Shown piece by piece: positions 44,460 through 56,120 of a stretch of DNA of 64,000 bases. The position numbers and the translations under genes were made by a program. Under the pieces are notes generated by a model. It saw only the letters and a program-made list of their open reading frames with translations. It did no database searches and was not told the DNA's origin. Position 1 is the stretch's first letter; every line of letters begins with the position of its first letter. Source of the DNA: Semisulcospira habei (lineage: Eukaryota > Mollusca > Gastropoda > Semisulcospiridae); assembly GCA_036245525.1 (NCBI GenBank), contig BTPG01000004.1, forward strand, positions 230,238,153-230,302,152, written 5' to 3'.

Positions 44460-44572
44460 TCATCTTGGCCCTTGCAGACTTTCGAACGCAAGTGCCAGCA
44501 TTTTGTGCAGCTTTGCGATATCTCGGTTTAACAATGTGCGGATCTTGGCAGCTCCCATTTCAAGCAGCATAC
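44460..44572 (-). CDS. MLLE gene exon 6 (C-terminal)
   Basis: Acceptor TTATTTCAG|GT. Reads (G)MLLEMGAAKIRTLLNRDI, AKLHKMLALAFESLQGPR, stop. It completes MLLE domain 3, whose KIT residues end exon 5. Phase 1. Confidence 0.85.
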
Positions 44573-47500
44573 CTGAAATAATTAAAACATATTCACAGTC
44601 AAGGCGGCTATCCATAAATACGAATCCGATGCGAAACCGATCTGATCCAAAGCAGCTCCTGAGTGCTCCGAAACAGAAAAAATTGTACAAGTCTTTTTCA
44701 TGTTTGTGTGTTTCCATATGTCCAATGTGATAAATGAATTTACATCTGTCCTCGAAAGAAAAACAACGCGATTTTTTTAAAGGAAAATTGCATCACCGCA
44801 TCGGGTTCGGATCATATTTGTATCGGATTTGTGCTTATGGAAACATAGCTTAACCCTCATCATTCGGAATACACCAGTGTGTGAAATAAGTTTGACTAAA
44901 ATAGTTTAAGGGTGGTGCCAGAATAGCTTGGCGCCTAGAGGCGCCAAGCTATTCTGGCACCACCCTTGAACTAAAGCCATTGGTGTATATCCTTGTCTGC
45001 AAGTACTATAATGTAGCCTGAAGGCGCCAAGCTCATCTGGCACTACCCTTGAATTATCATGATCAATCCATCTCCCACAACTGGTGCTTAGTCACTAGGC
45101 AAGACTTCCCAAATTTGAGAAATGGGACCCTGGGACTATAAGGATTAACGAAGACTGCAGAAACAGTCTGCGTGAGGTGGCAGTGTACCCACTTGTGTAT
45201 GTAGCCACCAGTACAGTAAACAGCGTGTGTGTGGTACTGTTAGAGAGAGAGAGAGAGAATGACAATGATTTTTTATTTTACAACAGTGAAAGTTTTGGCT
45301 GGCACAACTATTTTTTGAACTTGCCGTTGCTTATCTAATCTACAAATAATGCACAAAGTGTGAAAATAAAACCCAAAAAAATGAAATAAAAAATAAAAAA
45401 AATTAAAAAAATGTGCACACACACATATACACAAAAGAGAGAGAGAGAGAGGTCCTGTAAATTGTGTGATACTGTAAACAATGCGTGTGTGATACTGTAA
45501 ACAGTGTGTGGTGCTGTGAAAAACTTTTACAAATCCCAAAGCTGAACATGAAAACTGTCAGGGAGCATTCTTTCACCTTTTTAACTCCAAGTGTGTGGAA
45601 CTCGCTGCCAATTGAAATGCGGAATCTGCCCACATTGTCACAGTTCAAAGCTCACTTAAAGACTTTTCTTTTCTGTCGGCCATTTAACATTTAGTTCACC
45701 TTTAGCTAACTGTTGACTGCCTTTATTCTGATTCTGGAGGGAAGTGGATGTAAGGTGTTGGGAAGGGATGGGGTGGGTTAAAGTAGCGTATAATTGTGCG
45801 TGTGTCTGAGAGAGAGTGTGTGCTGTTGTGCATGCGCAGCGTCCAGTGTTTTCCTGGAGAACAGCGCGATACAAGAACTATTTATTATTATTAATATTAC
45901 TGTAAACAGTGTGTGTATTACATTGTCAACAGTGTGTGGTACTGTAAAAGGGATGTGTGGCACTGTAAACATTGTGTGTGTTACAGTAAACAGTACCAAA
46001 GGCTGCACGCACAATGGGACAGACCCTTTGGCTGCTGGAAGCAGTCATTGTCGTGATAATTCCTGCAGGAAACCGTTACCGACGGACTAAACGGGGCAAT
46101 AACACAACACCCCTAACCCATATCATACCGAGACTAAAAGCTTCCAATTTGTACACTGCCATAAGCAAGCTACATTATAGTACTTACAGAGATAAGGATA
46201 CAAACCAATGGCTTTAGTTCAAGGGTGGTGCCAGATTAGCTTGGCGCCTCGAGGCGCCAAGCTATTCTGGCACTACCCTTGAACTATTTTAGTCAAACTT
46301 ATTTCACACACTGGTGTATTCTGAATGATAAGGGTTAATGAAATATTGACAGACGTAACAAATACCTGTAATTTTCTCTGCATGTTGAGGGTAAAGTTCC
46401 TCGGCCTCAGCATACACCCTCTCCCCGAGCTCCTCTAAATCTGCCTCACTGCTCAAATCCTGGCCGGCATTTAGGCCGCCATGGACTTCCGTCGCACCAT
46501 CATCCCCCAAAGCGCGGGAACTTGGACTTAAATTCTCGCTACTATCAGCTGTCACACCACGACTTTTTGTAGAGTTGCGGGAATCGGAGGAATCAGAAGC
46601 TGATGTCAATAATCCAGATTCAGGGATGTCTGAATATTCATGTCCACGCACGTCTGAATATCCATGGGCATGCCGACATGAATATCCATGTTGAGGGACG
46701 TCTGAATGTCCATGTTCAGGGACAAAATGAGAGCAGGAGAGAGTGGCTTTAGCTCGAGTCACAGCTTCCTGAAGTTTTGATGGTTTGGCCAGAAGCTCAC
46801 TGACTTGAGCCGAGCCCAAATCCAACAATATACCTGAAAAATTATAAATAGGAAAAATACTGCTCATTTTAACCCATTCAGCCCTGACACACTATGGCAG
46901 GAGATGGACTGACCATGATAATTCAAGGGTAGTGCCAGATTAGCTTGGCGCCTGTCGGCGCCAAGTTAATCTGGCACTACCCTTGAAGTATCATGGTCGA
47001 TCCATCTCCTGAAACAGGTGCATAGTCGTTAGATGATGCCTCCAAACTTGGGGAAGTACGTGCGCTGGGCTGAATGAGTTAAAGGTGCTTACCCAACTCT
47101 GTGAATCGGCTCAAAAGCACTATGAACTGAACCCAACACGCATAAAGATGTAACGCACACGCATTCACTCTAAAGACAACTCTGTGAATCAGGTCCAAAC
47201 ACCATGAACTGAACCCAACACGCATAAAGATGTAACGCACACGCATTCACTCTGAAGACAACTCTGTGAATCAGGTCCAAACACCATGAACTGAACCCAA
47301 CACGCATAAAGATGTAACGCACACGCATTCACTCTGAAGACAACTCTGTGAATCAGGTCCAAACACCATGAACTGAACCCAACACGCATAAAGATGTAAC
47401 GCACACGCATTCACTCTGAAGACAACTCTGTGAATCAGGTCCAAACACCATGAACTGAACCCAACACGCATAAAGATGTAATGCACACGCATTCACTCTG

Positions 47501-56065: not shown

Positions 56066-56120
56066 TGTTATCGTGTCTAAATGTTTGTATGGAATGATCG
56101 ACGTATGCCAGGATCCACAA
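55729..56120 (-). CDS. MLLE gene exon 1 (first visible)
   Basis: Acceptor TTGTTCTAG|T, donor CCAG|GTACCA (phase 1). ATG at 56065 gives MDSDLTAAENIPTCASDS, followed by Pro/Ser/Thr nonapeptides ending in eight NSSTLPP units. Open sequence upstream of the ATG (CGSWHTSIIPYKHLDTIT) could also be coding if another 5' exon exists. Confidence 0.72.
55731..55995. repeat. 27-bp coding tandem repeat
   Basis: The unit 'gggggtaatgttgaactgtt' plus 'ggtagct' is repeated about eight times with decay at the right end. On the - strand it encodes the (A/T)TNSSTLPP nonapeptide. Confidence 0.9.

Follow-up and report, generated by a model that had tools for sequence, protein, structure and literature searches.

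The window, i.e. the whole stretch of 64,000 nucleotides of Semisulcospira habei DNA that was analysed, carries on its minus strand a predicted gene of six exons joined from position 56065 to position 44460. All introns have GT-AG borders and the phases (1/0/2/1/1) are consistent, such that the coding sequence forms a closed frame of 1305 nt that starts at the ATG at 56065 and comprises 434 amino acids and a stop codon. The six consistently phased minus-strand exons of an earlier, preliminary description of this DNA are thereby retained, whereas its figure of 1375 nt has to be replaced by 1305 nt. Exon 1 (55729..56065), placed by frame, donor and an array of 27-bp units, contains the predicted start and Ser/Thr/Pro nonapeptide repeats (ATNSSTLPP). 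Exon 2 (55293..55492) holds the end of the repeats and the first half of the first MLLE domain with its signature KLTGILLE, and is backed by frame, Pfam and tblastn matches to several family proteins. The second half of MLLE1 lies on exon 3 (53967..54046; frame, Pfam), which has a weak donor, GTTGGT; an alternative donor at 53963 (GTAAAG) was rejected as it breaks the frame. Exon 4 (52385..52491; frame, Pfam) encodes the first half of MLLE2 and ends in phase 1 directly after HITG. Exon 5 (46366..46833) is symmetric (phase 1-1) and combines the second half of MLLE2, a long linker and the first half of MLLE3, with support from the frame, tblastn and a genome match of 337.9 bits. Exon 6 (44460..44572; frame, Pfam, genome match) begins with MLLE and provides the second half of MLLE3 and the stop codon. 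A phase-1 intron between ITG and MLLE thus divides MLLE2 as well as MLLE3; MLLE1 is divided elsewhere.

The array behind the N-terminus has a period of 27 bp and 10.5 copies (55722-56005), and the nonapeptide N-terminus noticed earlier is what it encodes. The nonapeptide register runs on across intron 1, which supports this junction. Several reading frames are open across the repeats, so that openness alone is no proof of coding, and the extension is absent in the named relatives that were aligned. For these two reasons the N-terminus is the least certain part of the gene model. The ATG at 56065 is probably the coding start and therefore a further 5' coding exon, which the preliminary description had called for, is unnecessary. 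Taken together the gene looks intact and, judged from its sequence, appears to be a member of an old animal protein family.

Against the Pfam MLLE profile (PF00658, curated cut-off 27 bits) the whole predicted protein scored 108.2 bits (2e-31). Each of the three tandem domains also passed the cut-off alone: MLLE1 (aa 138-203) with 38.3 bits (E 1.4e-9), MLLE2 (aa 214-277, HITGILLD) with 44.4 bits (E 1.8e-11) and MLLE3 (aa 369-433, KITGMLLE) with 45.6 bits (E 6.9e-12). This profile check, proposed together with the initial domain assignment, confirmed the three domains and their signatures. In the 434-aa predicted protein Pfam gave no match to RRM or HECT, and no membrane or further domain was seen.

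RRM search and other MLLE genes of the genome

Searching the window by tblastn with eight PABP proteins revealed no RRM exon: the MLLE part of the queries matched the MLLE exons of the window, and their non-MLLE parts gave nothing better than E 0.047. In the 40 kb upstream, searched as four 10-kb stretches, no PABP query matched at E 0.01. As a control the same queries were applied to the three PABP-type loci of the genome and were successful at two of them, where RRM exons were found about 3-4 kb (C5:52.33 Mb) and about 8-19 kb (C1:119.07 Mb) upstream of the PABP-type MLLE. At the third locus (C5:50.41 Mb) no RRM match was obtained in 30 kb upstream, which may reflect either large introns or a separate gene; its MLLE is 67% identical to human PABPC1 over 51 aa. 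The absence of RRMs, on which the preliminary description had staked its reading, holds for the predicted protein, the window and the 40 kb upstream.

A PF00658 search of the genome provided four matches over the cut-off, of which three were PABP-type and one, on C1, was UBR5-type (74% identity to human UBR5 over 43 aa). The window gene, the domains of which are split by introns, was not listed in this search. When the MLLE region of the window protein served as query, five genome matches at E 1 or better were found, all within the window, such that the gene is single-copy at the sensitivity of the search. The three PABP-type MLLEs are unbroken at KITG/MLLE, each being a single tblastn piece with 57 to 59 profile positions in one frame without a stop, whereas in the window gene both MLLE2 and MLLE3 are interrupted at this very place.

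The predicted protein shares the MLLE fold with PABPC1 and its kin and, in two of three domains, the pocket for the Phe of PAM2 peptides. It differs from them by the lack of RRMs, by having three MLLEs instead of one and by domains that fall outside the PABP/UBR5 clade. Like UBR5/HYD it has an MLLE without being a poly(A)-binding protein, and of the solved structures the UBR5 MLLE is the best match of its MLLE3; in contrast to UBR5/HYD, for which the genome has its own locus, it contains three MLLEs and neither a HECT nor another ligase domain. Fungal Rrm4 likewise has three MLLEs, some of which are described as lacking the canonical Gly (PMC9249222), but carries three RRMs and one canonical pocket out of three, compared to no RRM and two canonical pockets out of three in the animal protein described here.

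Relatives in other animals

A first protein search returned six relatives, namely two Actinia isoforms, one Lottia protein and three sequences without organism name. Pfam matched four MLLE stretches in each of them, the Lottia count including one domain split by an insertion. A profile search then provided 106 proteins, among them members from Mytilus, Octopus and Plakobranchus. After setting aside 19 of these (P0091-P0109, 18 of them RRM-labelled), the remaining 87 and three proteins from the first search formed the set scanned against Pfam (P0001-P0090). All 90 had an MLLE match, none had an RRM at E 0.001 and one had a PHAX RNA-binding domain.

The third search gave 2643 matches at E 1e-6 or better. 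Among the best 120 of these were proteins from cartilaginous fishes (sharks, rays, chimaera), coelacanth, lungfish, bichir, gar, bowfin, sturgeon and many teleosts as well as amphioxus, starfish, crinoid, stony coral, Actinia, Pecten and unnamed organisms. The named ones among these 120 were mostly called uncharacterized or hypothetical and in a few cases polyadenylate-binding, and none of the 120 carried a PF00076 label. Three or four MLLEs were counted in 184 of 191 family sequences; of the other seven, three had two MLLEs, two had five, one had six and one had a single MLLE. These counts come from a home-made HMM seeded with the same sequences, with split domains inflating some of them, and 90 of the 191 sequences were scanned against Pfam. 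As the sets were chosen by searches, all such fractions describe the family found rather than MLLE proteins in general. The PABPs among the matches had one MLLE each.

By these sequence matches the family spans molluscs, echinoderms, amphioxus, sharks, bony fishes and cnidarians. The original claim of an undescribed protein with three MLLEs and no RRM is therefore supported and can be widened to a family with members in several animal phyla; the notion of a single odd mollusc protein has to be given up in view of the relatives in echinoderms, chordates and cnidarians. Three or four MLLEs without an RRM are found, for example, in Pecten LOC117316855, Mytilus LOC127730201, Latimeria LOC102356072 and Actinia LOC116295046. 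The window protein differs from such relatives by its Ser/Thr/Pro repeat N-terminus and the long linker between MLLE2 and MLLE3. As to the suggested search for mollusc orthologues, the mollusc relatives compared have the domain order of the window protein, and so have the echinoderm relatives compared.

In a tree of 86 domains over 66 columns, human UBR5 clustered with 20 PABP domains (98/98), and the family domains lay outside this cluster. Defining the family by at least two MLLEs, no RRM and a position outside the PABP/UBR5 clade thus includes the predicted window protein. Its MLLE1 was placed in a group of ten (99/96) together with MLLE1 of Pecten, Mytilus, Octopus, Lottia, three echinoderms and one unnamed organism and with the second MLLE of amphioxus; for MLLE2 and MLLE3 no supported group of their own was obtained in this tree. 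The closest relatives of MLLE1 agree with a mollusc origin of the window. Pairwise scores paired MLLE1, MLLE2 and MLLE3 of the window with their counterparts in all seven three-domain proteins compared (three molluscs, three echinoderms, one unnamed), and one of eight vertebrate, amphioxus and cnidarian proteins was colinear with the window. From the colinearity in molluscs and echinoderms we infer that the three-domain order is older than their split.

The position of the intron was followed in eight isoform or species pairs. Three of them (Octopus vulgaris versus O. sinensis, Polypterus, Heptranchias) had a junction at KIT/G or ITG, the Actinia junction lay two residues before ITG and the remaining four were uninformative. 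In the models of Lottia and Plakobranchus there is a break directly behind ITG, which we take for mispredicted introns. Due to the symmetry of exon 5, its duplication or skipping would change the number of MLLEs by one while keeping the frame.

Two side observations concern domain combinations among the matches. A PHAX RNA-binding domain together with MLLEs is indicated by precomputed labels in P0084 and P0133 (JGI, 493 and 542 aa), for P0084 also by the Pfam scan. P0087 is a fungal protein from Aureobasidium pullulans (521 aa) with two MLLEs and no RRM label.

Peptide pockets and candidate function

Solved MLLE structures are reported to bind PAM2 through the same Phe pocket (PMC2854688). We scored this pocket as G563, an aromatic residue at 567, T582 and L586 in PABPC1 numbering. 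MLLE1 and MLLE3 of the window protein keep these residues. In MLLE2 the key glycine (G563) is replaced by Ala and K580 by His, so that the protein may be bivalent for canonical PAM2. In the family a canonical pocket was present in at least two domains in 182 of 191 relatives, and G563 was kept in 559 of 630 domains. Outside the pocket conservation was looser (K580 in 448 and G579 in 102 of the 630 domains), and the preferred peptide may thus differ. Fourth MLLEs were mostly non-canonical (43/77). The best match of the window MLLE3 among solved structures was the UBR5 MLLE, and the predicted models of two relatives resemble separate bundles on flexible linkers.

The conserved pockets of MLLE1 and MLLE3 and the separate bundles in these models make multivalent PAM2 binding plausible. 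On balance we lean slightly towards the view that the predicted three-MLLE protein and its family act as multivalent receptors for PAM2-type peptides, which would cluster or sequester partners of PABP and UBR5 off the poly(A) tail. MLLE1 and MLLE3 would bind PAM2 peptides via the Gly/aromatic/Thr/Leu pocket and MLLE2 would bind another peptide or none. Having no RRMs the protein would act off RNA, either by serving clients that carry several PAM2 motifs as a scaffold or by competing with PABP. The loss of the key Gly and Lys in MLLE2, the mostly non-canonical fourth MLLEs of the family and the report that only one of the three Rrm4 MLLEs binds known peptides (PMC9249222) count against a PAM2 receptor.

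There is an alternative that we consider possible but rather unlikely: the family MLLEs would be specific for a different short motif, either PAM2-like or of an unknown kind, and the protein would be a trafficking or condensate adaptor like the Rrm4 MLLE platform, untied to the PABP partners. The variation of K580 and G579 across the family and the missing G563 of MLLE2 would fit such a role, as would the finding that Rrm4 MLLE3 prefers PAM2L peptides with its MLLE1 and MLLE2 binding neither peptide type (PMC9249222). It is opposed by the intact Phe pocket of MLLE1 and MLLE3, by the retention of G563 in most family domains and by the absence of a membrane or any other domain in the predicted protein.

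Much less probable is that the exons were joined by chance or that the gene has decayed and is not expressed in the form given here. The closed six-exon frame with its consistent phases, domain E values of 1.4e-9 or better, exon junctions that coincide with those in the octopus, bichir and shark gene models and the common domain order of all seven three-domain relatives argue against it; the weak donor of exon 3 and the lack of AATAAA or ATTAAA on the coding strand at 42500-44470, i.e. within about 2 kb downstream, would speak for it. Most improbable of all is that the exons form the 3' part of a normal PABP gene with its RRM exons further upstream. Some relatives carry the database name polyadenylate-binding protein, and since the PABP-type locus at C5:50.41 Mb also has no RRM nearby, distance alone provides no full exclusion. 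Yet the search that detected RRM exons at two of the three PABP-type loci failed here over the window and 40 kb, the PABPs among the matches have a single MLLE, none of the 90 scanned relatives has an RRM, and the PABP-type MLLEs of this genome are not split between KITG and MLLE.

Returning to the PAM2-receptor reading, its widest form would make the family a third class of animal MLLE proteins: a multivalent, RNA-free PAM2 receptor that dates back at least to the cnidarian/bilaterian ancestor, was kept in molluscs, echinoderms, amphioxus and fishes including coelacanth and lungfish, and was lost in tetrapods. It would be built from symmetric phase 1-1 exons cut between ITG and MLLE, the duplication, loss or skipping of which would let evolution and splicing vary the number of MLLEs and thereby of pockets. 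Given the deviating Actinia junction and the view of 120 out of 2643 matches, we see the chances of this form as evenly balanced.

One account names, besides PABPC1, only UBR5 and Rrm4-type proteins as described with MLLEs, and calls Rrm4 the first protein with multiple MLLE domains to its authors' knowledge (PMC9249222). In a 2025 review, PABPC1 and UBR5 are presented as the two human proteins with an MLLE (PMC12852828). Among the papers matched in the open-licence literature we found no description of an animal multi-MLLE protein. The domain layout of this apparently old animal family was thus found nowhere described, and the function proposed for it is plausible. If true, a third kind of animal MLLE protein would exist beside PABP and UBR5, and the PAM2 motifs carried by factors of translation, deadenylation and the microRNA pathway would gain a further, multivalent partner in fishes and invertebrates. 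The conservation of PAM2 in these animals may then reflect a multi-MLLE partner too.

Repeats around the gene

Intron 4 contains a tandem array of 82-bp units with 8.0 copies and 98% matches (47094-47753). A palindromic element, the arms of which carry AGTGCCAGA and AGCTTGGCGCC, is repeated throughout the window including the introns of the triple-MLLE gene, with examples at 46931-46980, 51786-51830, 53257-53300 and 57232-57270. The arm sequence AGCTTGGCGCC has 18 matches in the window and its reverse complement 19, and the element looks like a MITE. Another tandem array at 29660-30350 is open in several frames and has a unit of about 8 codons according to the ORF translations. Two minus-strand frames, at 22818-24116 and about 63350-64000, are putative copies of a reverse transcriptase, which we take to be of the non-LTR type. 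An ORF sequence near-identical to these reverse-transcriptase-like frames is present at a locus on another contig.
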